IMG/VR virus record: IMGVR_UViG_3300006874_000039
Coordinates: 1 to 38,338 of that record
DNA from: a virus
Reading direction: 5' to 3' (one strand)
Length of the DNA stretch: 38,338 nucleotides
Positions 72 through 36,150 of this stretch are shown here, piece by piece. Both the position numbers and the translations under genes were made by a program. The notes below the pieces were generated by a model, which was not told where the DNA came from, made no database searches, and worked only from the letters and a program-made list of their open reading frames with translations. Numbering within the stretch: the stretch's first letter is position 1; each line of letters opens with the position of its first letter.

Positions 72-302
72 TTAGACCTTATCCCATCCTTTTTCAGCTA
101 AATGATGTAAAACTTGCTCGCGAAGGTGAGCAATCTTACGCTCGTTTTCAGACTTTTCTATGCGGAGTGAATTGTTTTCATCCCAAAGCTGGGACGCCCA
201 ATGCTCCACCTCAACTCTGTTGCGATACTCAGAATACCATAGAGCGGCCATCCCAGTCAATAGTAACCCGAATGTTCCGACAGAAATTATAAAATATTCC
301 AT
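72..302 (-). CDS. Small membrane-anchored coiled-coil protein (76 aa)
   Basis: Residues 2-22 are a hydrophobic membrane segment. They are followed by a highly charged helix (about 27-70) rich in Glu, Lys, Arg and Leu that looks like a coiled coil. The protein would therefore be inserted by its N-terminus with a helical tail. This resembles an inner-membrane spanin in outline, but it is far shorter than usual and sits at the end of the replication operon, directly behind dUTPase, not beside the peptidase. No family is recognised. The reading frame ends just before the operon terminator. The frame is credible because it abuts dUTPase without a gap and has a coherent domain pattern; the function is unknown. 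Confidence 0.6.
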   Translation of the reverse strand: MEYFIISVGTFGLLLTGMAALWYSEYRNRVEVEHWASQLWDENNSLRIEKSENERKIAHLREQVLHHLAEKGWDKV

Positions 303-722
303 TTAAACCCCCGTCGATCCGAAACCAGAGTCACCCCTGGTTGTCTCATGTGAAAACTCTGAGGCTTGGAACATCCCAGCCATCATGACCTGCTGGAACA
401 CCACCTGAGCAATTCTAGTACCGGGGGCAGCAGTCCAAGTGAACTGCCCATGATTGATCAGAATCACCTTCACTTCCCCCTGATAACCGCTATCCACCAC
501 ACCTCCCAGGACATCAATGCCGTAATCAGCAGCCAAGCCTGACCGTGGCCAGATTAAGCCAACGTGCCCCTGTGGGATATCGAATGCCAACCCAGTGCTG
601 ACCACCTGTCGAGTCCCCGGCATGATGGCGATATGTTCATCAGCATATAGGTCCCAGCCCGCATCAAACGTATGTCCTTTAGTTGGTGGGACGGCACTAT
701 CTGTTAAAAGCTTAAATTTCAT
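303..722 (-). CDS. dut: dUTP diphosphatase (dUTPase)
   Basis: Hydrolyses dUTP to dUMP and pyrophosphate, keeping uracil out of DNA and feeding dTMP synthesis. All five trimeric dUTPase motifs are visible in the 139-aa product: AGWDLYA (21-27), PRSG (59-62), GGVVDSGYQGEV (73-84) with the catalytic Asp and Tyr, RIAQ (103-106), and the C-terminal arm RGDSGFGSTG (129-138). The start at 722 is preferred over an upstream in-frame start at 818: homology begins at MKFKLL, a GGGG ribosome site lies about 7 bases upstream, and the longer form would overlap the preceding gene entirely. The length matches the family. It follows the 58-aa gene by one base and works with the ribonucleotide reductase in the same operon on dNTP supply. 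Confidence 0.95.
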   Translation of the reverse strand: MKFKLLTDSAVPPTKGHTFDAGWDLYADEHIAIMPGTRQVVSTGLAFDIPQGHVGLIWPRSGLAADYGIDVLGGVVDSGYQGEVKVILINHGQFTWTAAPGTRIAQVVFQQVMMAGMFQASEFSHETTRGDSGFGSTGV

Positions 723-723
723 G

Positions 724-900
724 TCAATACCCCATATCCAAATCTTGTGCCTGCTTCGCCAACTCGTCAGCCGCCTGATATCGTGCCAACTCCTGACGAA
801 GTTTCTCGTTTTCCGCAATTAAATCCCCTATTTCCGCGATCAATGCACGGCAGAACTCAGGGTCATTCAGGCGTTTCTCTAGCGTATCCTTAAAATCCAT
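724..900 (-). CDS. Small helical protein (58 aa), unknown function
   Basis: The product is a short, strongly charged protein whose middle and end (about residues 20-52) form a likely coiled coil with the pattern LIAENEKLRQEL. The start at 900 is chosen because GGAG lies 8 bases upstream; an earlier in-frame ATG at 924 has no ribosome site and would run into the 26-aa gene. The stop codon is separated from the dUTPase start by one base, so the two are probably translated together. The family is not recognised. A leucine-rich, Glu/Lys-rich helix suggests dimerisation or a partner-binding role, but nothing more can be said. Confidence 0.55.
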   Translation of the reverse strand: MDFKDTLEKRLNDPEFCRALIAEIGDLIAENEKLRQELARYQAADELAKQAQDLDMGY

Positions 901-902
901 TA

Positions 903-983
903 TTATACTCCGAACATTAAACATCCAAGGGCGAAGGACATGATCACCATTAAGGTGTATGCCAGAACTTCTTTACCACTCAT
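903..983 (-). CDS. Tiny single-span membrane peptide (26 aa)
   Basis: An open frame of 26 codons begins at 983 with a strong ribosome site (GAGGAGG, 9 bases upstream) that lies inside the end of the preceding gene. After a short polar start (MSGKE) the rest is almost wholly hydrophobic (residues 6-26, rich in Leu, Met, Val, Phe), enough for one membrane span. The stop codon lies 2 bases before the next gene's start, and that gene's GGAG site is formed by the end of this frame. The tight packing between two genes is the main support. No homologue can be named at this length. Confidence 0.5.
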   Translation of the reverse strand: MSGKEVLAYTLMVIMSFALGCLMFGV

Positions 984-1146
984 AAACCATAACCTCCTCG
1001 TCAATATGAAAAAGCACATAACTCCCGCAAGCAGGATCGCCTGCTGGACGACATCCGCGATGATCTCCGAAAAACTCATCTACTCTCCAGTTCACATTCC
1101 CATGCCTAAATGTCTCGCCACCAGACAGTTCGTAAAGCTTTTTCAT
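973..1146 (-). CDS. Small hypothetical protein (57 aa)
   Basis: The start at 1146 is preferred over the ATG at 1158. The sequence GGAGG sits 6 bases upstream of 1146, whereas the 1158 start overlaps the reductase stop (TAATG) without its own site; a 61-aa form by coupled re-initiation is possible. The product has two central Cys residues, a GxxRPAGDPACG stretch and an acidic, aromatic C-terminus (DEEVMVYEW). The residue pattern is that of a compact soluble domain rather than a membrane protein. It sits between nrdJ and the tiny membrane gene in the nucleotide-metabolism end of the operon. No family is recognised. Confidence 0.55.
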   Translation of the reverse strand: MKKLYELSGGETFRHGNVNWRVDEFFGDHRGCRPAGDPACGSYVLFHIDEEVMVYEW

Positions 1147-1157
1147 ATCATCCTCCA

Positions 1158-3281
1158 TTAGATTTCACAAGATCCACCTGCACAGGCAAGCTCTTGCTGT
1201 GGTGTGGTGTTATCTTGCAGTTCGATCAACTCCGTGTAGTCAACCGCAACTGCTCCTTCCTTTATAGAACAGTATCGATCGTATGTCCATAGGTCCTTTA
1301 GCAAATAAGTCACTTCTTTTTGTGAAATGTTGTACTTGTCTGAAAATGCCTGCAACTTCGCATCAAACTCCCTGTTTTTATTAAAGTCAAACAAGGCATC
1401 ATGGCACAATTGCCACAGTTCACCATCATTGTTGATGCCACTCAATAGCTCCCACCCATGAAGGACTGGGTCATTGCCGTAGTGTTTCATCATCTGCGAT
1501 GGCAAGTAGACCGCAGCAAACGGAGCTTGGGCATAGTCTTTATCGCCGGTGGCCGACAGCAGAGACACCCCGCAAAGGTGCTGCCGATTGTCGTAGATAA
1601 AGTCCTCCACAGTATCCCACTCTTCAGGCTCTACGTTGATTGTGTTGCTAACATTATGGGTAATTCCTTTTAGCTGGCAAAGATCCTCATTTGTACCTGG
1701 GACGACCCAGTGCTGTTGGGTGCTAACAACCGCCTTGAGCAAGCCCTCTGCCGATACCTTTCGCTTTGTGATTGCCCCTGATTTTGTTTCAATTGCGAAT
1801 GACACAACATCATCTGTTTGGTTTGCCGACCATACTGATGATTCACAGGAATCGCCATTAAACAACTTATAATGCCGATAAACTGGGTCGAGAGTGTTAG
1901 CCTGCACTCTGCGAATGTATCTTTTATAATGGTGTGGGTGGATCCCGCTAGATGTCCCTAATACACAACTGGCTGTTCCCTCTGGCTTTACACAGGTAGT
2001 CCTCGCAGCTGGTCTAATGCCGATCATATGAGCTATCAACCCATTAGCATACTTAACAACTTCCGCACCGTTCTCTTGTATCTTCTGATCCAGCAAGACT
2101 GAAGGATTCTCTTGCATACCCGTAATGGAAACGCCAAGTAAGCTTTCATATCCGAAGATGTTTTCACTTGCGGCTCCCAAGTATGGGAACTCGACAAACC
2201 CAGCCTGTAGCGTTCCGATGACCGCCGCCGAGAAAGCCGCCGAGTAAAAGTCGAATTCATCCTTAACCTTTGATCCATTGACTGTCGACAGGTTGCACCC
2301 CTGCCATCCCGTCTCGCCTGTGAGAGGACATTTTGGATACATGCCAATTTCAACGCATGGGTTTACGATCATGTCCAAATCATCCATCCAGACAAACCCA
2401 GGTTCGCCAAACTCCTTGACTGACCTCATTATCTCAGCGAACTGTTCTCGCGTCGTTTCATTTCTAAGTAGTGCGACGGAATTGTTGCTGCGTCCACGTT
2501 GCGGGTTTTCGACGAACCAGTTGCCTGTCTTTGCTTTAAGCATCTCAATATCATGCGGGGAGAAAACACAGATCGTCGCAGACCTGCGAACGCCACCACT
2601 AATAACTGCGTCAGCAAGGTGGCATACAATATCATAACAATCAATTGGGTGTAGTTTCTCATTCTTTACTGCGTTCTCCAGTACGAATTCAACTTTTTGT
2701 AATGCTTTCACTAATGGCTCTGGACCTGGGGCCTTCCCACCTGCCGACAATGGCGAACCTTTAGGTCGGATATCTGAGAAGTCGAACTCTGGCTTTTGGT
2801 TGTAGCCGAAGTAACTCTTGATTAAAAGGTCAGCAGCTGTTGACCATCCTTCGATGCTGTCAACAACCTTCATTGGTAATATCTTATCTGACGGGGTAAG
2901 CTTAGGAAGCTTTCTGACATGCTGCTCTTGAACGCTGTATCCGGTTCCACAGCCGCAAAGCAAAAGATAAAAGCATTCGCGAAAGAATTCAACACGGTCG
3001 CAATGTGAAGCCACACAGTTGAACATGCGAGCGTTATGCTTAAAGATAGGATCGCCAGCGAATTGCATTGAACGCATCGACGGCAGAACCTTCTTTGACA
3101 AAACATCGTCATATGCCCTGACAATAAAAGGTATAGACTCTGGGTAGTTTTTATATTTCTCCAGCATCATTGCTCGTGAACGCATGACACACTCTTCCCA
3201 AGTCTCGCGTCGTTGTTCATCAGGAAGGTATTTAGCGTATTTACTTTGGAAAGTGAAGTCGCTTAGGTTTTTGAGAGTCAT
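1158..3281 (-). CDS. nrdJ: Class II (adenosylcobalamin-dependent) ribonucleoside-triphosphate reductase
   Basis: Reduces ribonucleoside triphosphates to deoxyribonucleotides using a cobalamin-generated thiyl radical, supplying dNTPs for phage replication. The 707-aa length is close to the monomeric Lactobacillus leichmannii type (about 740). Visible landmarks are FNCVASHC (87-94) with one redox Cys, GGVRRSATI (229-237), NPQRGRSNNS (259-268), the active-site NPCVEI (307-312) carrying the radical Cys309 and Glu311, QGCNLS (327-332) with the partner redox Cys, and a C-terminal pair Cys700/Cys705 in CAGGSC for re-reduction by thioredoxin. No intein is seen. AGGA lies 7 bases before the start. Dependence on B12 implies a host that makes or imports cobalamin. 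The next gene starts within the stop codon. Confidence 0.95.
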   Translation of the reverse strand: MTLKNLSDFTFQSKYAKYLPDEQRRETWEECVMRSRAMMLEKYKNYPESIPFIVRAYDDVLSKKVLPSMRSMQFAGDPIFKHNARMFNCVASHCDRVEFFRECFYLLLCGCGTGYSVQEQHVRKLPKLTPSDKILPMKVVDSIEGWSTAADLLIKSYFGYNQKPEFDFSDIRPKGSPLSAGGKAPGPEPLVKALQKVEFVLENAVKNEKLHPIDCYDIVCHLADAVISGGVRRSATICVFSPHDIEMLKAKTGNWFVENPQRGRSNNSVALLRNETTREQFAEIMRSVKEFGEPGFVWMDDLDMIVNPCVEIGMYPKCPLTGETGWQGCNLSTVNGSKVKDEFDFYSAAFSAAVIGTLQAGFVEFPYLGAASENIFGYESLLGVSITGMQENPSVLLDQKIQENGAEVVKYANGLIAHMIGIRPAARTTCVKPEGTASCVLGTSSGIHPHHYKRYIRRVQANTLDPVYRHYKLFNGDSCESSVWSANQTDDVVSFAIETKSGAITKRKVSAEGLLKAVVSTQQHWVVPGTNEDLCQLKGITHNVSNTINVEPEEWDTVEDFIYDNRQHLCGVSLLSATGDKDYAQAPFAAVYLPSQMMKHYGNDPVLHGWELLSGINNDGELWQLCHDALFDFNKNREFDAKLQAFSDKYNISQKEVTYLLKDLWTYDRYCSIKEGAVAVDYTELIELQDNTTPQQELACAGGSCEI

Positions 3282-3330
3282 TTAAAATCCTTAGTTGTAG
3301 CAGTTGGGTTTGAGGATGTGATTGATTTAA

Positions 3331-3576
3331 TTAAAAAGCACCGGACCTAATTTCACAGGTCTTGTCATAGTTGTTAGCAGAAGAACGGCGATTAATTTCA
3401 CGCTCGATATACCATACAGCCTTTCTGAGATCCTCAATCGGCTTCCCCTTGTGGTCGCACCTGATAATGTATTTAAGAGCGTTTCCCAGGCAGAAATTAA
3501 ATTGCTCAGTGACATCGATTGCCTCCCACCCAGAATTCTGGTTGTAATGTGAAGGATGGTTGACATTATCCTGCAT
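3331..3576 (-). CDS. DUF3310 family protein (81 aa)
   Basis: The sequence carries the signature of DUF3310, a small domain common in phage nucleotide-metabolism regions: NHPSHY near the N-terminus (6-11), then EAIDVTEQFNFCLGNALKYI and a second helix with DLRKAVWYIEREI. Function is not established in the family. The helical layout resembles MazG-like or nucleotide-associated small proteins, but I do not claim activity. GGAG lies 8 bases before the start at 3576, and the first 11 bases overlap the end of the PD-(D/E)XK-like gene. Position immediately upstream of the ribonucleotide reductase fits a link with dNTP metabolism. Confidence 0.85.
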   Translation of the reverse strand: MQDNVNHPSHYNQNSGWEAIDVTEQFNFCLGNALKYIIRCDHKGKPIEDLRKAVWYIEREINRRSSANNYDKTCEIRSGAF

Positions 3577-4135
3577 ACTTAAAACTCCTTAATCTGAAAT
3601 ACTTGCCATAGTTGTTCTTCCCGACAACTATTCCCATTTTGTTTCCCATATATGGAATGTGGTGGTGTTCCTCGTTCTCGTACATTTCCTGAAGTGTAAC
3701 AGGACCAACCAACGCCCACTTAAGCTCTCCACTCTTCCATGTATCACCGATCCTTTTCCAATGCTTTTTGATGTCAAGATCGGCAGGGACTTTAAGTGAC
3801 CTTTCGGACAGATTGAAGATTAGCAAGACCGTGGCATTCTTTTTAATGTAGTTACGCATATCGTTTGTTTTTAGCGTAAACTTCCCAGATGTTGGAACGA
3901 ACTTCATTTCCAGTGGAACCTCAAGCCCGTTTATCTTAGCAATGAAGTCCACATCCGAAGTGTCAACTCCGTCTGGGATGTAACCACCACCATTGTCTAC
4001 ACCGTTGTCAATATACCACTCACAACCAGAATTACTAGAGCTAGACCAAGCTTCCATTAGCTTGCCTTCTATGGCTGTAGTAAACTCTATGTGAGACTTA
4101 AACTGTTCAATCGTTCTGTTGTCCAGTCTTCCCAT
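3566..4135 (-). CDS. Probable PD-(D/E)XK-fold nuclease (189 aa)
   Basis: A D-x(14)-E-x-K arrangement (Asp61, Glu76, Lys78, within DVDF and LEMKF) follows a predicted strand-turn-strand, and the hydrophobic strand TVLLIFNL comes after it. This is the core pattern of the PD-(D/E)XK nuclease fold found in Holliday resolvases, VRR-NUC and restriction-like enzymes. An N-terminal helix (res. 9-30) may hold an extra Glu. The start at 4135 directly follows the stop of the RuvC-like gene and has GGAGGG 7 bases upstream. Its position next to a resolvase and the PrimPol supports a role in DNA processing. The fold call is from motif only; a non-catalytic or unrelated domain cannot be excluded. Confidence 0.55.
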   Translation of the reverse strand: MGRLDNRTIEQFKSHIEFTTAIEGKLMEAWSSSSNSGCEWYIDNGVDNGGGYIPDGVDTSDVDFIAKINGLEVPLEMKFVPTSGKFTLKTNDMRNYIKKNATVLLIFNLSERSLKVPADLDIKKHWKRIGDTWKSGELKWALVGPVTLQEMYENEEHHHIPYMGNKMGIVVGKNNYGKYFRLRSFKYAG

Positions 4136-4606
4136 CTACAGGCCCTCCTCCACTATCGATCCATAAGTTGCGATCAACAAAGCGTCCGCCGACCATAACG
4201 TAATCGGGAGTTTCCCACCCGTTTTGCCCAAAGATCCATACAGCTCTTCCGCTGCCTCCTTCAGCATGTTCTTGTCCCCTTTGCTCGTCGTCCCGATGAC
4301 TCTCTTTTGCCACGCTGCTGGCATCACCTCGTGATACTTCCATTCCAAAGCCTCGATTAACCCTAATATTCTCCCGACGCCACGACCAAAGTTAAAAGAT
4401 TGGGTTGCTCCCCAACCTCCTCGTCCTCGAACCGCTTCGATATAAACTATAACTTCATGCGATCTAATACCTGTTGTATATTCCCGGAACTGCTGCAATA
4501 TCAGATTGCCTGTTTGTGGTAACTTCTCCACAGCAATCCAGTCAGTATGAAAGTAAGCTACACCACCGTTCACACCTGGGTCGATACCTATGATCATCTT
4601 ATGCAT
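4136..4606 (-). CDS. RuvC-like Holliday junction resolvase
   Basis: Likely cuts four-way DNA junctions formed during recombination-dependent replication or before packaging. The 156-aa product has the RuvC/RNase H-fold pattern: GIDPG (7-11) with catalytic Asp9, the second-strand YIEAV with Glu57, and a C-terminal SADALLIA helix with Asp141. RuvC proteins are about 160-175 aa, so it is near full length. A glycine-rich run after Glu57 (GRGGWG) fits the substrate-facing loop. It overlaps the PrimPol gene's end by 8 bases and its stop abuts the next gene's start, showing tight coupling. The alternative start three codons later (MIIG) is possible. Catalytic residues are intact. Confidence 0.88.
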   Translation of the reverse strand: MHKMIIGIDPGVNGGVAYFHTDWIAVEKLPQTGNLILQQFREYTTGIRSHEVIVYIEAVRGRGGWGATQSFNFGRGVGRILGLIEALEWKYHEVMPAAWQKRVIGTTSKGDKNMLKEAAEELYGSLGKTGGKLPITLWSADALLIATYGSIVEEGL

Positions 4607-6668
4607 TTAAAAACAAAACCTTCTTTCTGTCGATAATCTTTTCTTCGAGCCTTCCGCTTTCGACAAGAGTACCGATCACACTTTGGTAAAGTTTGTTATC
4701 GCAGCCAATCTGCTTTAGTAAAGCAGTCTTTCCTATTGTTCCTTTAGCGTCTTTGATTATGCTAAACACCTCCATCTTCACCGCCTCAAATGAGCCACCA
4801 ATACCTAGTCGCTTGCGGCCCTCGGTTAGAACATATTCGCTAGTGTGGATGGCCCAGTCGATTCCCCATCGAGCATCAGCCTCAGTGACTTTCCAAGAAT
4901 CGGGGCTGCGGTCTAGGGCTCGCATTAAAGCGAGCTTCCTTGCCTTCTCTGGAGCCCGTCCCCAAATAGCTTGCTCCTCGTCAGTGGTGTATCCCTCTAC
5001 GACATCCCACAATTCATCATAAGCTCTTTCTGCTTCAGCCGAGACGGGAATGATCTCCGCATCTGGGTTGTCCTCTATCCCGATAGTTGATCCGAAGGTT
5101 GTGAATCGATTGATCCAGAAGTTTGTCCTGTCGACTAGTCGCTGGGGCGGATACATAAATTTGCGATTTTTTCTCTCTCCGCGTTTTCCAGTGTCAACGA
5201 CCATAATCCGTCCTGCAAATCCATCACGTAATTGCATTCTGGTGAGAGCCGACCAAAAATGGTCTGCTGTTGAATATCCGGAGAAGGAGAAGCAGGGCTG
5301 ATTGATAATAATATCCCGCTCCTTGTCCGCGTAGGCCTTAAGGCGATATCTTGAGTTAGCTGCACCCCAGAGGTCGAGGAGAGTGTCATTGATAGTCGCC
5401 ATGACTCCTCCTTTCGCCTTTTGCAGAAAAAGTCCGTATTCATCCCAGAGGCATAATAAGCTTGGCGTGTCCGAAAGTAACGAGCCAATTGCAGCATCAC
5501 TTGTAACCTTGCCAGCAACCTTGTTGGGATTCGAGCTGCGATCAAAAACAGCACGGATGCAGTCTTGAGGGGCTTGCTTGCCACCGCTAGAAGGTGCCAA
5601 GACCACTGTGTAAAGATTTGTTTTAGTTCCGCTTTCATCCATCACCCCTCGCCCTAAACAGGCACTATACCAACTAATAGCCCCAGTTACCGCAAGGGCT
5701 CGATTTGACCTTGAACTCTGCGATTCAATGTATTCTGCGAATTCGGCCATCCCACTGCCTTGGGGAAGCTTGAGCAGGTTATCTGGAATTTTACTAACCT
5801 GGGAAGTTGCAATTAAATTCGCATTGAGGGTACTCATTTCAATGTCATCGACCGACGCCTCTGGCATCTCCATTCGACCATAATCTTTATGCTTTTTAAT
5901 ATCTTCCTTTCGCAAGACTTCTCCGATTTTCCGTATCACATCATCGTCTCCCCATGGCGGATCACATTTTGGATTGAAGACATCCATGATAAGATCGTAA
6001 GCCACTTTAGGTGGAAGCTTAAAATCTATCAGCATTCGGCAACAAGCCTTGAAAAGGGCGTTGTGCCCATTATGGCCAGAGATGCTAGGATTCATAGTCT
6101 CCAAGTAGGCTCTAGCATCGCCCAGGATTGATTCTGAGACCTCTTCGTTGTCCCAATCGATTGGAGTGTCACACTTCTGCTTTAAGCCCTCAGAACAGTA
6201 TTCCTGCACGACCTCAGAGATGTCCCCTAATTGGGTGTAGTTTATCACATTTCCTGTGATCGTGAAAAATCGTCTAGCTGTGTAAACCTCAATTTTTTCT
6301 TTGGTTATTCCTTTTCGGTCAAACGGGCATGTTCCGATGAACTTAATGCCAGTCCCGCTAGGCGAAACTTCAGCATATGTTTCAAGTCGTTCAAGCATTT
6401 CTTCAGCGATAGGTGTGTACGATCCATCACCTAGAATGCAGTCGTCGAGGTCTATGCCAGCTAACCCATCGCCCTCGCGAAAGACAAAACCTATTCCATC
6501 ATATCCGCTCAGGTTCATGCACTCCACAGCCTCGTCATATGTTCCCCAGGTTGTTGGATCAGTGCTGCTTGCCGCCCCACCTTGAGGGTTAATTGGAAGC
6601 TTGCGGCCAGTGCGTCGATCCCAGCAGACCCATTGTTTGAGGTTTCGCAGGTCAGTAATGTCTTCCAT
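4599..6668 (-). CDS. Primase-polymerase / DUF3987 ATPase fusion (689 aa)
   Basis: The N-terminal part (about 1-160) matches archaeo-eukaryotic primase-type PrimPol domains: GIDLDD (71-76) supplies the metal-binding Asp pair, SPSGTGIK (102-109) is the second motif, and RFFTITG (133-139) the third region. A helical PriCT-like linker with NPKCDPPWGDDD follows (about 195-255). The C-terminal half is DUF3987-like: APSSGGKQ (358-365) in the Walker A position and LLCLWDE (404-410) in the Walker B position, probably a helicase-like ATPase, though the usual Ser/Thr after the Walker Lys is Gln here. This resembles the layout of single-protein phage replicases such as NrS-1 polymerase. It is the only polymerase candidate in the window. 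It overlaps both neighbours. Confidence 0.85.
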   Translation of the reverse strand: MEDITDLRNLKQWVCWDRRTGRKLPINPQGGAASSTDPTTWGTYDEAVECMNLSGYDGIGFVFREGDGLAGIDLDDCILGDGSYTPIAEEMLERLETYAEVSPSGTGIKFIGTCPFDRKGITKEKIEVYTARRFFTITGNVINYTQLGDISEVVQEYCSEGLKQKCDTPIDWDNEEVSESILGDARAYLETMNPSISGHNGHNALFKACCRMLIDFKLPPKVAYDLIMDVFNPKCDPPWGDDDVIRKIGEVLRKEDIKKHKDYGRMEMPEASVDDIEMSTLNANLIATSQVSKIPDNLLKLPQGSGMAEFAEYIESQSSRSNRALAVTGAISWYSACLGRGVMDESGTKTNLYTVVLAPSSGGKQAPQDCIRAVFDRSSNPNKVAGKVTSDAAIGSLLSDTPSLLCLWDEYGLFLQKAKGGVMATINDTLLDLWGAANSRYRLKAYADKERDIIINQPCFSFSGYSTADHFWSALTRMQLRDGFAGRIMVVDTGKRGERKNRKFMYPPQRLVDRTNFWINRFTTFGSTIGIEDNPDAEIIPVSAEAERAYDELWDVVEGYTTDEEQAIWGRAPEKARKLALMRALDRSPDSWKVTEADARWGIDWAIHTSEYVLTEGRKRLGIGGSFEAVKMEVFSIIKDAKGTIGKTALLKQIGCDNKLYQSVIGTLVESGRLEEKIIDRKKVLFLNA

Positions 6669-7045
6669 TATAGAATCACCTTTTTAACTTCAAATTCCCC
6701 AAACGTATCCAGAACATCTTGCAGAAATTTAGCAACACATGGCGGATACTCACCAACTATTGTTTTCTTTACGTTTGGCCATCTACCATCCTGCTCGTAT
6801 TCGGCAAAAGCGGTGGGGCGAACCTTGCCGACGCAGGCAAGGTCCACCGCCACTCTCGCTGAAGTTGGGATAGGAACACTACTTCTACTTGACCACCACT
6901 GATTAAAGGACTTACTCTTCGGGAAAAGCCACTCCTTCAGGACTAGCCCAGTATCACAGTAGTAGCTCACTAAGAAAGCTTCTCTGCCTGACTTAGTGAT
7001 TGTCAGTTCGTATAATGTTCGATCTACCCCAACCTTTATCATCAA
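6668..7045 (-). CDS. Hypothetical protein (125 aa) in the replication operon
   Basis: A compact alpha/beta protein with no motif I recognise. It begins with a strand-rich stretch (MMIKVGVDRTLYELTITKSG), has a basic, Trp-rich middle (FNQWWSSRSS, about 47-56) that could contact nucleic acid, and ends in a helix plus short strand. It is joined to both neighbours: its start overlaps the 73-aa gene by 4 bases (ATGA type), and its stop overlaps the PrimPol start as TAATG. This strict coupling suggests it is made in a fixed ratio with the PrimPol and may act with it. Product role is unknown. Confidence 0.7.
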   Translation of the reverse strand: MMIKVGVDRTLYELTITKSGREAFLVSYYCDTGLVLKEWLFPKSKSFNQWWSSRSSVPIPTSARVAVDLACVGKVRPTAFAEYEQDGRWPNVKKTIVGEYPPCVAKFLQDVLDTFGEFEVKKVIL

Positions 7046-7263
7046 CCAACCTTGATACTAAAGTTGTACTGCTTACCGAATTGACGCATGAGAACTTTCT
7101 GCTCACTACCCTGGTAGTAAACCAAGCAAGGGTGAAGTTCATCAATCGCATCAGCAAGGGCAGCAGCATTGACAAGGCGTTTCTCTTTTGGATTCTGCAC
7201 GATATATCGAGCATCATCACGAGCCACTTCTTCTTTCTTTTCTTCCGCTTTCTTTTTAGCCAT
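7042..7263 (-). CDS. Small basic-tailed hypothetical protein (73 aa)
   Basis: The N-terminus (2-16) is a Lys/Glu-rich, probably flexible segment, followed by a small folded region with helix (VNAAALADAIDEL) and strands (CLVYYQGSEQKVLMRQFGKQYNFSIKVG). No family is recognised. It overlaps the following gene by 4 bases and lies 11 bases after the SSB-like gene, so it belongs to the central DNA replication block. A role as a small accessory DNA- or protein-binding factor is conceivable but unsupported by motif. Confidence 0.65.
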   Translation of the reverse strand: MAKKKAEEKKEEVARDDARYIVQNPKEKRLVNAAALADAIDELHPCLVYYQGSEQKVLMRQFGKQYNFSIKVG

Positions 7264-7274
7264 GTTTTACCTCC

Positions 7275-7769
7275 TTAGAAACTTGAAAAAGGATCGGAAT
7301 TTGAAACCTTACTCATCGTTGTCACTGGCTGCTGACTCGATGATTCACGCTTTTGGAATTCTTTCGGTCCTGGGTCGGAAACATTCTTGAAGATACGCCG
7401 AAGATTCAAATACCCCTTGCGTTCTTCAAGTCTTGCCCCAAAGGTCGAGTCAAGCAGATCATCAATATCATTGCATTTCTTTTCGTTCACCAATGCAATC
7501 TGCTTGATGTATTTAGCATTGGCTTTATTAATCCAATCAAGAGGAGCCCCTTTGATTGTAAGGTTGAACCAATGCCGAACCCCGTTATATTCTCCCTCAT
7601 CGGTGACTTCGCCTACCAGAACAACTTCGGATCGATCATCACCCTGATTAAACTTTGCATCAACAACCTTGAAGTTGTATTCACCCTGAACTAGCTTTTT
7701 AAAGCTGGTCTTCGGAGCAAAAACTTCTTCGCCTTCCAAAGCTTCATCGAGTTCGTTAAAAAGACTCAT
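7275..7769 (-). CDS. DUF669-type single-strand DNA-binding-like protein
   Basis: The 164-aa product resembles DUF669 phage proteins, which occur beside Sak4/Erf-type recombinases and are thought to bind single-stranded DNA. The core is strand-rich (YNFKVVDAKF, EVVLVGEVTD, HWFNLTIKG, residues about 30-73), as expected for an OB-like fold. The C-terminus ends SDPFSSF after a Ser/Gln-rich linker, resembling the partner-binding tip of bacterial SSB (acidic followed by Pro-Phe). Its start overlaps the end of the ATPase gene by one base, linking it to the recombinase. Role as the phage SSB is inferred from family and neighbours. Confidence 0.75.
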   Translation of the reverse strand: MSLFNELDEALEGEEVFAPKTSFKKLVQGEYNFKVVDAKFNQGDDRSEVVLVGEVTDEGEYNGVRHWFNLTIKGAPLDWINKANAKYIKQIALVNEKKCNDIDDLLDSTFGARLEERKGYLNLRRIFKNVSDPGPKEFQKRESSSQQPVTTMSKVSNSDPFSSF

Positions 7770-8506
7770 TATTCTACCCCTTTGTTAATTGCGTCTTGGA
7801 TTACATCCCAGTTCATTGGGATAACATCTTCCATTTCTAGGCGGCGTTTTGCTGTAACGGATGGTTTGCCCGTTGTCCGAAGTAGGACGCCGTTTCCACC
7901 TCGGACCTTAACTTCCTTTTTTCCGAACGCTCCCTTCTCCTCTGAGAATCTTAGGTCTTCAAAACAATAAAACACTTCATCGCAAACCTCAACCAAAGCT
8001 TCACTGAAATCCTTGTTAACAAGCTTTGGGTAATGTTTGTCGTATTCGGGATGTTCAGGATCTCGCTGTGGGATCACCATGTCATGTGCAATAACCAAGA
8101 CATTCTTTCCCATCTTATCCCGAACATACTTCAAAGCTGCCAGAAACTTATTCCATTCCTTACGGAGACTTTGCTTTCCGACACCGTACCCAATGTCGTT
8201 GATTGCGTCGACACCGTGCTGTTCACAAACCTTGGTTGTTAATAGTGTTTCGACCGAGTCAACAGCATCGATAACAAGCCAATCAAAAGACCAATTACCA
8301 GAAACCACATTTTGCCAAGCCTCCGAATGGTCATCATAGGTTGCAAGGTGCGGAGTCCGAGTTGGACCGATTTCGTCAACGCCGTCTTCATAGTTTAGAA
8401 AAAGATGCCCAGGTGCTGCTGCACCAAGAGTTGACTTCCCTTTACCGTGGGCACCGTACACGACCATCATTCGTGGCCGATTCTTCTTTCCACTAGTCAA
8501 TTCCAT
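7769..8506 (-). CDS. Sak4-like RecA-fold recombination ATPase
   Basis: A 245-aa AAA/RecA-core ATPase. Walker A GAHGKGKST lies at 18-26 and Walker B WLVIDAVDS at 76-84. Later strand NVLVIAHD fits the sensor region of Sak4-type phage annealing/recombination proteins, which are short RecA-like NTPases lacking extra domains. It likely promotes strand annealing or exchange together with the RecE-like nuclease upstream and the SSB-like protein downstream. The start at 8506 (MELTSG) is chosen because GAGGGG lies 4-5 bases upstream and it avoids overlap; a start at 8560 would overlap the nuclease gene by 46 bases. An alternative role is a RadA-like helicase loader. Confidence 0.82.
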   Translation of the reverse strand: MELTSGKKNRPRMMVVYGAHGKGKSTLGAAAPGHLFLNYEDGVDEIGPTRTPHLATYDDHSEAWQNVVSGNWSFDWLVIDAVDSVETLLTTKVCEQHGVDAINDIGYGVGKQSLRKEWNKFLAALKYVRDKMGKNVLVIAHDMVIPQRDPEHPEYDKHYPKLVNKDFSEALVEVCDEVFYCFEDLRFSEEKGAFGKKEVKVRGGNGVLLRTTGKPSVTAKRRLEMEDVIPMNWDVIQDAINKGVE

Positions 8507-8514
8507 AATACCCC

Positions 8515-9318
8515 TCACATAAACAAACCGCCAATGCTGTAATCCCCTAGTTCTCGACATTTTCTGGCCGCTGAAATCGCTCTATCGAACGAGCCCACCA
8601 TCCCAGGTGTTTCAAACTCTTCGCTTTCAATTAGCTTGGTATGATATGGATCTTCTTTTTGCACAAAGCCAAACACAAACCTGAAATCTGAAGGCTTGTG
8701 GCCAAGTGCGGAAGCCAGCAGACGTTTATAAGCCACCGACTGCCAACCATACTTAAACCGCATCCCAGACTCGAAGGCCGTTGTAATGTCACCTGTGGTC
8801 TTCAGATCGAAGATCAACTTGTCGCCATCCCAGGCGTCCATCTTCCCCTGGAATTTGACTCCTTCGAGAGTTCCTCGGATAGCCCACTCAACACGATTAC
8901 AGGCCCTAATCAAGTCACCCATCTCTGGGTCGGCCCTACAAGCTTGAGCTATATTTAGAGTTGTTTTGTATTCTTCCTCATTAATTGTTCTCCAGATGTT
9001 GTATTCGTTTTCTCTACAGAATTTCTCCCAAGATTTTGTCTCTCTCCCAAATGACTTCCCAGTCTTGGGGTTAATATGATCGGCAACGCTGAAGTTGTCG
9101 TTAAATGCATCATTACCCTCCAAGGTGAGACAGTGAATTGCTTGACCCATAATTAAGTGCGTTTTAGGGACTTCAAAATCACTGCGATTTGCTAAGTATG
9201 CTTCAAACGTCGTCGCGTCGTCGTAAAACCTTTTTAACAGGCTCACCGACATCATTTCGCCGTAAGAACCGTAATACTCCCTGTCGCTTATATTCTCAAC
9301 CTTCGCTTGTGTCTCCAC
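8515..9318 (-). CDS. RecE-like PD-(D/E)XK exonuclease
   Basis: A 267-aa protein resembling the PDDEXK-type exodeoxyribonuclease VIII C-terminal domain. Motif order is GQAIH (58-62, conserved His), GKMDAWDG (158-165) with Asp161, IFDLKTT (169-175) with Asp171 and Lys173, and QSVAYKR (193-199), the QxxxY helix of RecB-family nucleases. It would resect double-stranded ends to give single strands for the Sak4-like ATPase. The start is GTG at 9318 with GGAGG 5 bases upstream, overlapping the previous gene by 23 bases. Nuclease-recombinase-SSB adjacency is a classical phage recombination module. Confidence 0.85.
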   Translation of the reverse strand: METQAKVENISDREYYGSYGEMMSVSLLKRFYDDATTFEAYLANRSDFEVPKTHLIMGQAIHCLTLEGNDAFNDNFSVADHINPKTGKSFGRETKSWEKFCRENEYNIWRTINEEEYKTTLNIAQACRADPEMGDLIRACNRVEWAIRGTLEGVKFQGKMDAWDGDKLIFDLKTTGDITTAFESGMRFKYGWQSVAYKRLLASALGHKPSDFRFVFGFVQKEDPYHTKLIESEEFETPGMVGSFDRAISAARKCRELGDYSIGGLFM

Positions 9319-9589
9319 AGCAACCTCCGCAATATCCAGTCAGGGAACACCCGCCACATCTCGTGCTTTCCCTACAGTCATCCTTATATTCTTCAGCGAC
9401 ATCTCTCGCGGCACGGTACATCGCGATCTTCATTTCCATTCGCATGTTGATTACACCAACATCTCCGAGCTTCCCAAAAACTTGTTCGTCGAGTCCGTCT
9501 AGTTTAATTAAATAGTCAACAGCTTCCTCGATTGAATTTGCAGCTGCACACGCAAGGCTAATTTCCAGCTGGGAATTTTGCTTTTTCAT
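9296..9589 (-). CDS. Hypothetical protein with Cys-rich tail (97 aa)
   Basis: The body is helical (residues about 8-72), and the last 22 residues hold six Cys in a Gly/Cys-rich run (CGGCSLTGYCGGCC). The tail could bind a metal as a short zinc knuckle or remain disordered; part of it is encoded where the next gene (GTG start at 9318) begins, so overlap limits its sequence freedom. The gene overlaps the one upstream by 32 bases. No family is recognised. It sits just before the recombination nuclease. Confidence 0.6.
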   Translation of the reverse strand: MKKQNSQLEISLACAAANSIEEAVDYLIKLDGLDEQVFGKLGDVGVINMRMEMKIAMYRAARDVAEEYKDDCRESTRCGGCSLTGYCGGCCGDTSEG

Positions 9590-9917
9590 AGTCTTCTTTC
9601 AACTTTTTTGGGTAATTTTTCAAAACATATTTCAAAAACTGATTGGTTGTTTTCATTGAGGCGATGGGGCGTTGATCATCCTCAGACTTCCATCCCCAAT
9701 CGGTCACGCATCTATCCATCCCGAGAGTGATCATGCAGACTCCCAGAAGGGTTGTCAATATTGAATTCTCGGTCGTGACCTCCCCAATTTCACTGTCAAT
9801 TTCAAGTGCCATTGAAGCAGCATCATTAACTAAATCATTCGCATCCGAACTGTCATTAATGCCGCACATTTCACAAAACTCAAATAATATCTTTCTTCCT
9901 TGATCGTTGGATTTCAT
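9558..9917 (-). CDS. Hypothetical protein (119 aa), probably soluble helical
   Basis: The first two thirds are acidic and helix-prone (FEFCEMCGINDSS, then NDLVNDAASMALEIDSEIGEV), with three Cys in the first 65 residues. The last third is basic and ends in KYVLKNYPKKLKEDYEKAKF. No catalytic or metal-binding pattern is clear. It overlaps the downstream gene by 32 bases and is one base from the upstream gene, so it is part of the same transcript. Possibly a phage-specific accessory factor; the function cannot be assigned. Confidence 0.6.
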   Translation of the reverse strand: MKSNDQGRKILFEFCEMCGINDSSDANDLVNDAASMALEIDSEIGEVTTENSILTTLLGVCMITLGMDRCVTDWGWKSEDDQRPIASMKTTNQFLKYVLKNYPKKLKEDYEKAKFPAGN

Positions 9918-9918
9918 A

Positions 9919-10248
9919 TTAATCTCCCGAATCTACTCTAAAGCTGACTTTAGCTGTCATGGAATACCTAACCTTAACACCTCGCCCTTCGGAGATGGTG
10001 TTAAACTTATGTCCGGCATCAAGCATCGCTTTAAATCTATCAAATTCCCTATCTGCCCAACCATTCATATATCCAAGATACTCATGATCTGGGTCGGCCA
10101 TCAAATCCATTAGTTCATTTTCCATTTTCCAAATCCTCCGTATTCGTCTGTTTTCAGGCAGGCATTCTTTAGCCATTCTTTCTTGTTTCCTGCTTCTATT
10201 TAAAAATTGTTCATAACTTTCGCCTGTATCTTTTAATTCAAATGGCAT
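9919..10248 (-). CDS. Hypothetical charged protein (109 aa)
   Basis: The product is very rich in charged residues: a basic helix in the first half (NRSRKQERMAKECL, NRRIRRIWKM), then acidic helix-forming stretches and a short strand-rich end (VKVRYSMTAKVSFRVDSGD). A GGAGGT ribosome site lies immediately upstream (spacing about 4), formed partly by the stop region of the acidic 36-aa gene. No domain is recognised. It lies early in the leftward operon, where phages often keep regulators or host-interaction proteins; that is context only. Confidence 0.6.
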   Translation of the reverse strand: MPFELKDTGESYEQFLNRSRKQERMAKECLPENRRIRRIWKMENELMDLMADPDHEYLGYMNGWADREFDRFKAMLDAGHKFNTISEGRGVKVRYSMTAKVSFRVDSGD

Positions 10249-10365: not shown

Positions 10366-11217
10366 CTAAAAGTACAAGTGAAGGTGTTCAACACCCAGAT
10401 TCATTTCGTAACCACACCCAGTGTTCGGTATCTCGTCACCATGCGGTGGCACTGGGGTCGTGAAGTCAGGTTTTTCTCTATCAGAATAATAGGTTCCTCG
10501 GTGGTCAACCCAGTCGTTTGTGTTGTGGCCTCCAGATTGGGCTATGCGTTCCTGTTGCTTCCTTGCAGAAGGAAAACTATATTGATGACCCATAAACCAC
10601 ATAATAGAGCCTAATCTTATATTGACAGGTGCGAGAGTATGTTCCATCCGCCTGCAATGTCTCTCAATGCTTCTCCGTCTATATTTGACTTGGTCACGAG
10701 ATAATCCGGTAAGGTTACTTATTGGAATCTCCTGCTCACCCGCCAGCAAGCACTCAAAGATTGTCCTGTAATCTTCGCCAAATAAATCTCCGATGTCAAT
10801 AGCGGCGATGTGGGCATCCGATCCCGGACCAATATCAACAGAAACCACCGACGACATGTTGTTAGCTGTTATCTCCTCGCCCTGCAAATCATCGTCATTT
10901 GATTTTCCCCAAATCTCCTCCATGTTAGGCAATGTCGACTCCCAAGTGCCATCATCATCCTTCTCAATCCTGCCTTGGTTGCTGAGAACTTCAACCAGTG
11001 TTTTTGTAAATGGACGAAACTTTTTCTTGATGACAAACTCAATGTAAACATCATTTAGTGCGTCGTCAACTCCATAGGAGGCGTCTGCACATTTTGAATC
11101 CAGAATCTTCTGGAATCTCTGAATTAACCTCCTTGCAGTAATCTTGCATTTTTTTCCACATGCCGCCTCAGAATCCCTTATCAGTGTTTTGGCATAAGAG
11201 ACAGTTTCATTGTTCAT
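10366..11217 (-). CDS. Putative HTH regulator, possibly sigma-like (283 aa)
   Basis: First gene of the leftward operon, with a very strong site GGAAGGAG 7 bases before the start. The N-terminal half is basic and helical (ARRLIQRFQKIL, ALNDVYIEFVIKKKF). A stretch around residues 165-205 (DYRTIFECLLAGEQEIPISNLTGLSRDQVKYRRRSIERHCRRM) has the spacing and residues of a sigma region 4 or similar helix-turn-helix: variable helix, turn at LTGLS, recognition helix rich in Arg. The final 70 residues are polar, rich in His, Tyr, Pro and Gly and probably flexible. It may control phage promoters such as the paired 30-bp motifs beside it. I cannot see a clear region 2, so a full sigma factor is uncertain. 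Confidence 0.55.
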   Translation of the reverse strand: MNNETVSYAKTLIRDSEAACGKKCKITARRLIQRFQKILDSKCADASYGVDDALNDVYIEFVIKKKFRPFTKTLVEVLSNQGRIEKDDDGTWESTLPNMEEIWGKSNDDDLQGEEITANNMSSVVSVDIGPGSDAHIAAIDIGDLFGEDYRTIFECLLAGEQEIPISNLTGLSRDQVKYRRRSIERHCRRMEHTLAPVNIRLGSIMWFMGHQYSFPSARKQQERIAQSGGHNTNDWVDHRGTYYSDREKPDFTTPVPPHGDEIPNTGCGYEMNLGVEHLHLYF

Positions 11218-11230
11218 TTAACTCTCCTTC

Positions 11231-11260
11231 CCTATCTAACTATATACGGGTGATTGTCGC
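11231..11260 (-). promoter_or_regulatory. Left copy of a 30-bp phage promoter-like motif
   Basis: On the minus strand this reads GACAAT, two variable bases, CCCGTATATA, then an AT-rich stretch ending ATAGG. It lies 14 bases upstream of the first leftward gene's start (11217), so a transcript starting near it would have a short leader. A near copy faces the other way at 11454-11483 (23 of 30 positions identical). TATA-type elements resemble a -10, but the -35 is poor and spacing short, so a phage-modified or alternative holoenzyme, or an activator, may be needed. Confidence 0.6.
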
Positions 11261-11272
11261 TATTTGGGCGAC
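11256..11272. promoter_or_regulatory. Inverted repeat overlapping the left promoter motif
   Basis: GTCGC (11256-11260) and GCGAC (11268-11272) form a 5-bp dyad with a 7-base centre. The left arm coincides with the upstream end of the promoter-like motif, which is where an activator or repressor could act. It is absent from the right copy, which may allow different control of the two arms. A short chance hairpin is possible. Confidence 0.35.
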
Positions 11273-11453
11273 GATTTTATTTTTTCTTTCATGATTATCG
11301 ACCAAAGATTCTTGCTTCTACATCAATTGTCCTGAATACAGGGTTTTCACTAGGTTTGATAACTTGCACGCATTATTCCTCCCCCCAGTTGAGGGTCGTT
11401 AATGGCAAATTTCATGCCAATCTTCATTTTTTTAAATTTTAATTACCCAAAAT

Positions 11454-11483
11454 CAGACAATGCCCCGTATATAATATAATAGG
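11454..11483 (+). promoter_or_regulatory. Right copy of the 30-bp phage promoter-like motif
   Basis: Plus-strand sequence GACAAT, two variable bases, CCCGTATATA, then two overlapping TATAAT hexamers (11470-11475, 11475-11480) and ATAGG. It is placed about 240 bases upstream of the first rightward gene and is the obvious start of the late/structural transcript. The match to the divergent left copy includes the non-TATA parts, so it is not only an AT-rich coincidence. The region between the two copies (11273-11453) holds no credible gene; it contains an AT-rich tract and a small dyad TGGCA/TGCCA (11403-11419). Confidence 0.65.
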
Positions 11484-11725
11484 AGGGAGGGAGGAGTGAG
11501 CTTTGCGAGCGACGACCGACCGACTTGAATTGTACATTTATTTCAATCCTCTAGCAAGTGGAATATCTGTGCATGATGATTGACTAAAGCTGCTGTGGCC
11601 ATCCCAGGCTGCGGCAGCTATCTAAACTGGGATGTTCCTAGCGGGTGCAGGGGCGGCGTTTGAGCCCCTGCAATGGTTAGCACTTTAGGGGGAAGGGTTG
11701 GGATACCCAAGAGGAAGGTAATAAA
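11484..11725 (+). promoter_or_regulatory. Structured 5' leader of the structural operon
   Basis: No gene is seen in these 242 bases. The RNA would contain CATCCCAG (11600-11607) pairing with CTGGGATG (11627-11634), enclosing a second hairpin GCTGC/GCAGC (11608-11618). Next comes a 9-bp hairpin TGCAGGGGC/GCCCCTGCA (11646-11672) without a U-run. A purine-rich stretch and the ribosome site AGGAAGG precede the first gene. Possible roles are an antitermination signal, RNA stability element or translational control. The alternative pairing AGCTGC (11588-11593) with GCAGCT (11614-11619) competes with the first stem, which would suit a switch. Role inferred from structure only. Confidence 0.5.
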
Positions 11726-12088
11726 ATGAGAGAACTTTTCCGTTATCTGCCGGTTCTTATGGAGATCCTGCCGCACGTAACGCACATGACTGGTAAGGAC
11801 TGCCCAATGGAAGAAAAGGCAGAACATGTCATGCAAATCCTGGCCATTCTGGCCGATCAAACCGATACTGAGCTGGACGATCTGATTATTGATCGTGTTG
11901 CTGAGTTGGTCAAATCAGATCAGTTTTGGGACACTATTGAGAGGATTCTATCTGCATTCCGGGATGATCCAAAGGAATTTGGGGCTGTACTTCAAGAGGA
12001 AAGGAATCTCGATCCAGCTACCATCGCCCTAATTATTGAGGTGGTTGGGCTAGTCATTCGACTATGGAGAGATCGCCGTGATCGATAG
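11726..12088 (+). CDS. Hypothetical protein with C-terminal membrane segment (120 aa)
   Basis: First gene of the rightward operon, with AGGAAGG 8 bases before the start. Residues 1-95 are mostly helical and acidic; residues about 96-114 (PATIALIIEVVGLVIRLW) are hydrophobic and followed by the basic end RDRRDR. This is the pattern of a tail-anchored protein with its bulk in the cytoplasm. It overlaps the next membrane protein gene by 11 bases. Together with the following small membrane proteins and the peptidase it could belong to a lysis cassette, for example as a holin regulator, but no family is recognised. Confidence 0.65.
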   Translation: MRELFRYLPVLMEILPHVTHMTGKDCPMEEKAEHVMQILAILADQTDTELDDLIIDRVAELVKSDQFWDTIERILSAFRDDPKEFGAVLQEERNLDPATIALIIEVVGLVIRLWRDRRDR

Positions 12089-35000: not shown

Positions 35001-35311
35001 GTTTCTTGGGACTTCCCAGCAAAACGGGTTGACCGATTTTAAAAACACCCCCTCCCCCCCTCTGGTTTTGGGGGTTAATTCGGGTGGAATTTAGGCATAT
35101 CCCTCTCAAGGCTCCTGAGAGCCTTTCTAACGCACTCTAGGCGTTTCCCGCATGATATGTCAAAAAGCACGAGAAATTATCACAGGAGGCGTCTGAGAGC
35201 CTCGAATTCCTCCACGGGCCGCTGAAATGCCGCACAACAAACATCTGGGATGGCCAACAAGCACAAAAAAGCCCACAGTCACCTAAAGAGGGGGTTTGGG
35301 GACTTCCCAGC
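35001..35311. repeat. Gene-free stretch with dispersed short repeats
   Basis: No supported gene lies here. The 13-mer GGGACTTCCCAGC occurs at 35008-35020 and 35299-35311. CTGAGAGCCT occurs at 35115-35124 and 35193-35202, the first also forming a CTCTCA/TGAGAG hairpin (35103-35121). CCTAAAGAGGG occurs at 35282-35292 and again at 35377-35387 next to the tandem array. Such paired repeats in an untranslated stretch suggest protein-binding sites, for example for replication or packaging, though chance similarity of G/C-rich words cannot be ruled out. Confidence 0.45.
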
Positions 35312-35413
35312 GTTGGCTTAATTATTTCCCACGGGGATATTTTTCTGAAATTTCCGGGCCAAAAACCCCACACTTGCCTAAAGAGGGCTGGGGGCGAGGG
35401 GAGGAGGGGGAAA

Positions 35414-35638
35414 TTGCCCATTTTGCCTATCTTGCCTATTTTGCCTATTCTGCCTATTCTTCCCATCTTGCCTATTCTACCTATCCTGCCTATCTTGCCT
35501 AACTTGCCTAGTTTACCTAGTTTGCCTAAACCGCCCAAAATACCCAATTCGCCTAATTTGCCTAGTCTGCCCAATTCGCCCAAAACACCCAGTCTACTTA
35601 GTTTACTTATTTTGACCATTTTACCTAACCTGCCCAAG
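35414..35638 (+). repeat. Tandem array of 25 units of 9 bp
   Basis: Twenty-five contiguous 9-base units with consensus TTGCCTAtt, degenerate towards the right. A solitary unit lies just upstream (35373-35381). Because the period is three codons, frames stay open on both strands. The plus frame from TTG 35414 would encode 25 Leu-Pro-X triplets then a polar tail, ending 35698; AGGAGG lies 6 bases before that TTG. I class it as a repeat because nothing else supports translation: no promoter close upstream and no known protein. Alternatives are an origin iteron array, a partition or packaging site, or a coded LP-repeat peptide. Confidence 0.8.
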
Positions 35639-35715
35639 TTAACATCAACCCTGAGTTGTAGTCAAATTGACAACAAGCCGAAAAAAATGTCAATATAACC
35701 GATTTTTTGCTTGTT

Positions 35716-35767: not shown

Positions 35768-35796
35768 TTGACAACCACTAGTCGATCCGATATAAT
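35768..35796 (+). promoter_or_regulatory. Consensus sigma-70 promoter for the right gene cluster
   Basis: TTGACA (35768-35773), a 17-base spacer, and TATAAT (35791-35796): both hexamers and the spacing are perfect. Upstream is an A/T-rich tract (about 35735-35767) that could act as an UP element. Transcription would start near 35803, about 50 bases before the 80-aa gene. Such a perfect promoter is typical of early phage genes read by the host polymerase. Confidence 0.85.
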
Positions 35797-36121: not shown

Positions 36122-36150
36122 TTGACAATCAACACCCTTGCCGATATATT
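36122..36150 (+). promoter_or_regulatory. Second sigma-70 promoter in the right cluster
   Basis: TTGACA (36122-36127), 17-base spacer, TATATT (36145-36150; one mismatch). The start of the spacer (AATCA) and the CCGA before the -10 resemble the first promoter (AACCA and CCGA), so the two share more than the hexamers. It lies 46 bases upstream of the 88-aa gene, inside the gap after the 80-aa gene. Confidence 0.8.

Follow-up and report, generated by a model that had tools for sequence, protein, structure and literature searches.

The window analysed here, the whole of a 38,338-base virus record, holds two oppositely transcribed gene blocks that meet in a divergent junction at 11.2–11.7 kb (Table 1). 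The leftward genes (0.07–11.2 kb) belong to replication and nucleotide metabolism and encode an exonuclease, a Sak4-like protein, an SSB-like protein, a primase (DUF3987), a class II ribonucleotide reductase and a dUTPase, together with a RuvC-like gene assigned by inspection. The rightward genes (11.7–34.9 kb) are structural (tail-type proteins, terminase, portal and capsid), and a set of small rightward genes occupies 35.8–38 kb, preceded by sigma-70 promoters of near-consensus sequence at 35768 and 36122. A preliminary description of this DNA had called both of these promoters perfect, which holds for the first; the second is not quite perfect. Close to where these small genes begin, a repeat tract (35137–35698) reads PILPILPIL and LGKLGK on opposite strands. 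We take the phage to be estuarine, going by the sample numbers that near-identical contigs carry in IMG.

Table 1. Coordinates of genes and predicted elements in the window; L017 is the contig of a related phage.
Feature	Position	Strand	Remarks
283-residue sigma-like protein	10366..11217	−	First gene of left operon; sigma-4-like HTH at about residues 133–192, after low-confidence N-terminal helices
Rest of left operon	72..10248	−	Expected customer of left promoter
Left promoter, predicted (−50 to +3)	11230..11282	−	−35 CCAAAT 11262–11267; GACAAT 11253–11258 and CCCG in spacer; −10 TATAGT 11239–11244; putative +1 G at 11232
Right promoter, predicted (−50 to +3)	11432..11484	+	TTAAATTTT 11432–11440; −35 CCAAAA 11447–11452; GACAAT 11456–11461; CCCG; −10 TATAAT 11470–11475; putative +1 G at 11482
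Structured 5' leader of right (structural) operon	11482..11725	+	244 nt; fold z-score −3.3
Leader element GCAAGTGGAATATCTGTGCA	11554..11573	+	20 nt; 20/20 identical at L017 2180–2199 (−)
First gene of right operon	11726..12088	+	120 residues, function unassigned; L017 counterpart 41–43% identical
Host sigma-70 promoter, TTGACA-17-TATAAT	35768..35796	+	12/12 consensus positions; candidate early promoter
Second host sigma-70-type promoter	36122..36150		11/12 consensus positions

Twin sites at the divergent junction

Each operon is preceded by a copy of the same motif, and the pair is real, not a product of chance. As had been noticed before, the copies point outward: the window has exactly two copies of GACAATNNCCCGTATATA, at 11241–11258 (minus strand) and 11456–11473 (plus strand), where 0.16 matches with up to three mismatches would be expected by chance. 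The core from GACAAT to ATAGG spans 28 nt, with 22 identical (30 and 23 in the preliminary description), and the likeness extends beyond it into inverted arms of 38 nt that are 74% alike (11231–11268 and 11446–11483). Aligned outward, the arms score 100, compared with a shuffle mean of 50.6 (s.d. 6.6), and none of 2000 dinucleotide shuffles reached this value; the junction halves read inward score 71. A matrix scan yielded no third site within the 38 kb (the two sites score 46 and 46, the next best 10.8). Among viral contigs, the exact motif was found only in L001, a 99.98% identical copy of this phage, and as chance matches in coding sequence.

Two smaller features accompany the sites. First, a terminator-like hairpin on the plus strand (11252–11276; GATTGTCGC..GCGACGATT followed by a T-run) overlaps the left promoter in its upstream portion, and could halt rightward transcripts that enter the junction. 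Second, a one-base insertion just downstream of the right promoter (L001 1487–1493, window 11501–11506) separates the two near-identical phage copies. A candidate leader peptide at the right site (GTGAGCTTT...) was dropped because this insertion breaks its frame.

T7-class promoters are similar to the motif in length and in their ATAGG end, and the 28-nt motif ending in ATAGG might thus serve a T7-like single-subunit RNA polymerase. We consider this highly improbable, as no such polymerase is among the ORFs seen (in a record that may be incomplete) and a PF00940 search of the record found none, with a control search likewise empty.

A related phage and the layout of the predicted promoters

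A scan for the ribonucleotide reductase led to a second lineage, represented by contig L017 (reductase 79% identical). Its gene order matches that of the window, running from the 316-residue-type gene of the right operon across the junction to the dUTPase gene, with protein identities of 29–93%. The L017 junction has its own outward twin (2252–2274 and 2435–2457; 23 nt, 83%), which differs in sequence (CAATCTTnTTATnnAnTAGGGAG) and scores 93 against a shuffle mean of 47.4, with 0/2000 shuffles as high. The comparison therefore covers two independent phages, the window lineage and L017, between which a predicted twin outward promoter is kept at the junction with most of its letters changed.

Single-protein queries with the portal and the 283-residue protein returned only copies of the same phage, and a search of viral contigs with the alignment of the 283-residue protein returned the same two phages. 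Two scans of genome contigs found no relatives, so they gave no hint of a host. In distant primase relatives (L021 and L026–L039), a homologue of the 283-residue protein was not detected. Short lone ORFs resembling sigma region 4 are present in the distant primase relatives L043 (1453–1866), L021 (6275–6697) and L046 (1219–1677), where they sit between an SSB-like gene and downstream replication genes.

The search for the motif in relatives, which the preliminary description had proposed, has a divided outcome: the twin arrangement and the −35/−10 layout are conserved, but the literal motif is absent from the sole syntenic relative found. That description had also named loss of the motif beside retained genes as a finding that would speak against it; on this count the exact motif falls, and the promoter pair survives as a feature.

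The four sites, two from each phage, were aligned without gaps on their terminal GG, an anchor (TAGG) picked by eye before the shift test; in the left sites this GG coincides with a Shine–Dalgarno stretch, which counts against our reading of the sites. Common to all four are a T-rich tract (−46 to −41), CCA (−35 to −33) and a box resembling TATAAT (−12 to −7). With a spacer of 17 bp, the −10 boxes read TATAGT and TATAAT in the window and TGTTAT and TATTAT in L017, whose left box (TGTTAT) is poor. The −35 position reads CCAAAT, CCAAAA, CCAGAT and CCAAGG, none of them TTGACA-like, and the sigma-70 scans listed none of the twin sites. The two right sites have TTAAATTTT exactly in common. Over the unanchored part (−50 to −19), the four sites agree in 6/32 columns, and 55/128 cross-phage pairs match, compared with at most 5 columns and 48 pairs (means 2.4 and 34.6) in 60 misregistered shifts; six identical columns were reached by 1 of 20,000 shuffles.

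Both junction sites are best read as predicted bipartite sigma-type promoters in which CCAAA replaces TTGACA. The preliminary description had seen no good −35 at normal spacing, which is true of TTGACA; at a distance of 17 bp, TATAGT is preceded by CCAAAT and TATAAT by CCAAAA. Its view that these are not plain sigma-70 promoters is borne out in that the sites are promoter-like, phage-specific and outward-facing, with a shared consensus before each main operon that recurs in L017. One correction concerns GACAAT and CCCG, spacer features that are common only to the sites within the window phage. These are probably not core recognition elements across relatives, since only the twin arrangement and the −35/−10 layout are conserved. 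They may be extra contacts, or leftovers of duplication or gene conversion.

Duplication might also account for the sites as a whole, if the arms were a neutral inverted duplication, homogenised by gene conversion and carrying ordinary −10 boxes without a dedicated factor. Consistent with this, the sites are more alike within each phage (30/46 and 28/46) than across phages (17–23/46). However, two diverged phages have the twin at the same junction, its mismatches cluster between conserved blocks, and the cross-phage −35/−10 register beats every shifted alignment, and we give this explanation little credence. We consider it similarly improbable that the twin sites are operators, at which an autoregulatory protein (possibly the 283-residue one) would act on plain host promoters to repress the two divergent operons. 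An inverted repeat, GTCGC-N7-GCGAC, does overlap the left −35, and divergent twin operators beside a regulator gene are a common layout, but none of the other three sites has the repeat. The elements common to the sites are non-palindromic and stand in −35/−10 register with the direction of the genes, and the record yielded neither an HTH_3 repressor nor an integrase.

Downstream of the right promoters, the leaders of both phages (209 nt in L017, with a fold z-score of −4.0 against shuffles) carry tandem strong hairpins, which are preceded by GCAAGTGGAATATCTGTGCA; otherwise the two leaders can be aligned only poorly. An Rfam search of the leader gave no credible family. Our guess is that GCAAGTGGAATATCTGTGCA may act as an antitermination or protein-binding RNA element.

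The 283-residue protein as candidate reader of the predicted promoters

The gene for the 283-residue protein adjoins the junction in both phages. Its L017 counterpart (231 residues from its GTG) is 30–32% identical, through the HTH. This is one of the two least conserved proteins common to both phages (30%, vs 79% for the reductase), as expected if factor and promoters co-diverge. The window protein had no sigma family match in Pfam, NCBIfam or PHROGs, no tblastn match in annotated phages and none in a PDB sequence search, and TIGR02937 had no match in the window record. The L017 homologue, by contrast, matches TIGR02937 (sigma70-ECF) over region 4 (E=2.5e-5 for the whole protein and 1.3e-5 for the C-terminal part), below the curated cut-off.

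AlphaFold models of the two proteins, built on two-sequence alignments, are weak overall (mean pLDDT 42 and 48) but agree in helix order. Four N-terminal helices are predicted at low confidence, and the C-terminal domain is modelled better, with blocks of about 67–87. Of the 50 structures that align best with the L017 model, nearly all are sigma region 4 (best Z 7.1 over 56 residues, 1.1 Å), and the fold matches of the window model are a mixture of sigma-4 and other HTH structures with sigma-4 leading; values of Z below 8 are no proof and may reflect a common arrangement. The N-terminal 96–100 residues had no Pfam or NCBIfam match. Region 2 has no sequence support, and hhalign comparisons with E. 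coli RpoE and phage 7-11 gp47 were uninformative, a whole-protein comparison having no power here.

Profile and models together indicate, with moderate confidence, that the C-terminal domain of the L017 homologue is of the sigma region 4 type. It was recognised directly in this homologue only, and is ascribed to the window protein because the two are 30–32% identical. The preliminary description had put forward the 283-residue HTH protein as a natural reader of the motif, and the likeness of the HTH to sigma region 4, seen in the L017 homologue, does make it the best candidate. We infer that it binds these sites, that transcription begins at the putative start sites, and that early transcription precedes middle/late. 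The protein may also be a genuine sigma with both domains, as opposed to an activator with region 4 only.

The activator is the less likely alternative. The protein might be a sigma-4-type activator that supplies the −35 contact while host sigma-70 reads the −10 element, in the manner of RinA/Ltr or MotA. In favour of such an activator, region 4 alone is recognisable in the factor, the −10 boxes TATAGT, TATAAT and TATTAT are near TATAAT, short lone sigma-4-like ORFs occur in the distant primase-module relatives, and phage late regulators are commonly encoded beside the promoter they control (PMC13123087). Against it, the predicted order of four N-terminal helices, linker and C-terminal HTH corresponds, at low confidence, to an ECF sigma in length and arrangement, 283 residues is twice the size of Ltr (~130 residues), and the left −10 box of L017 (TGTTAT) is without the key A.

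Our preferred reading, which we hold to have about an even chance of being right, is a sigma-like factor that reads a matched, phage-specific promoter pair for both operons, its own gene included. From the one junction, matched promoters would drive outward transcription of the left operon, for replication and nucleotide metabolism, and of the right, structural one. The C-terminal sigma-4-type HTH of the factor would recognise the CCAAA −35 region and recruit host RNA polymerase to both promoters, with the result that the factor would feed back on its own gene, amplifying its own operon, while the structural operon is opened. The 5' ends of left transcripts would be very short (the putative +1 lies 15 nt ahead of the ATG of the 283-residue gene; 11 nt in L017), and right transcripts would have a leader of 209–244 nt. 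A first supply of factor might come from weak host promoters before its gene (window 11301–11274, 9/12; L017 2363–2391, 10/12), matches that are near chance level. The host sigma-70 promoters near 35.8–36.1 kb would act early, followed by middle/late transcription. The examples of phages 7-11 and phiEco32 (PMC8948821) make such early/middle/late timing plausible.

Comparison with known systems and implications

Salmonella phage 7-11 resembles the window phage, as read here, in its sigma-type factor and its bipartite promoters with elements ~16–17 bp apart (PMC8948821, PMC4331800), as well as in the opposite transcription of functional and structural clusters, the sigma-70 consensus promoters for early genes, and a motif that differs among related phages at similar positions. 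The bipartite motif of its sigma gp47 (SaPh711_gp47), GTAAtg-(16)-aCTA, differs from the motif that phiEco32 has at similar positions of its genome (PMC8948821), and pairwise alignment of intergenic regions has been proposed as a route to such low-copy promoters (PMC4331800). The two phages differ in number of promoters (eight in 7-11, two in the window phage), and the motifs are unrelated (GTAAtg/aCTA vs CCAAA/TATAAT). Moreover, 7-11 gp47 has 185 residues and is annotated as a sigma, whereas region 2 is not recognisable in the window factor, a prediction from sequence.

With phiEco32, the window phage would have in common a phage sigma (gp36) and few, strongly conserved phage-specific promoters (PMC8948821). 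However, phiEco32 uses the single element tAATGTAtA without a −35, whereas in the window phage and L017 the −35 is the part most conserved across phages. RinA and Ltr of Staphylococcus phages, like the window factor as read here, are encoded beside the promoter they control and switch on structural genes (PMC13123087). They are ~130 residues long and act at one late promoter with upstream repeats, and neither a twin promoter nor self-feeding is described there (PMC13123087). A regulator of the RinA/Ltr kind is a small protein encoded directly upstream of its promoter; the factor has 283 residues (231 in L017), is encoded across the junction and lies downstream of one promoter of the pair. The T4 late (gp55) and SPO1 middle/late (gp28 and gp34) proteins are essential phage sigmas that redirect host polymerase, as proposed here (PMC9429907); their motifs and families differ from those of the window phage.

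A bolder possibility, which we think unlikely, is that the two factors found a new family. This would combine a sigma-4 domain with an N-terminal domain of a new type, co-diverge with exactly two promoters to give incompatible switches between close phages, and be coupled to an RNA element, conserved in the late leader, by which polymerase would get past the leader hairpins.

Few systems are known in which a phage sigma-like factor redirects host RNA polymerase, and the window phage would add a small environmental case. Here the predicted factor has just two cognate promoters, and in L017 the factor and both promoters changed together. The pair would thus form a compact natural case for the co-evolution of sigma region 4 with the −35 element. 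Because the window factor escapes the family libraries and was recognised only via L017, pairwise intergenic comparison of related phages may reveal other hidden phage sigma factors.
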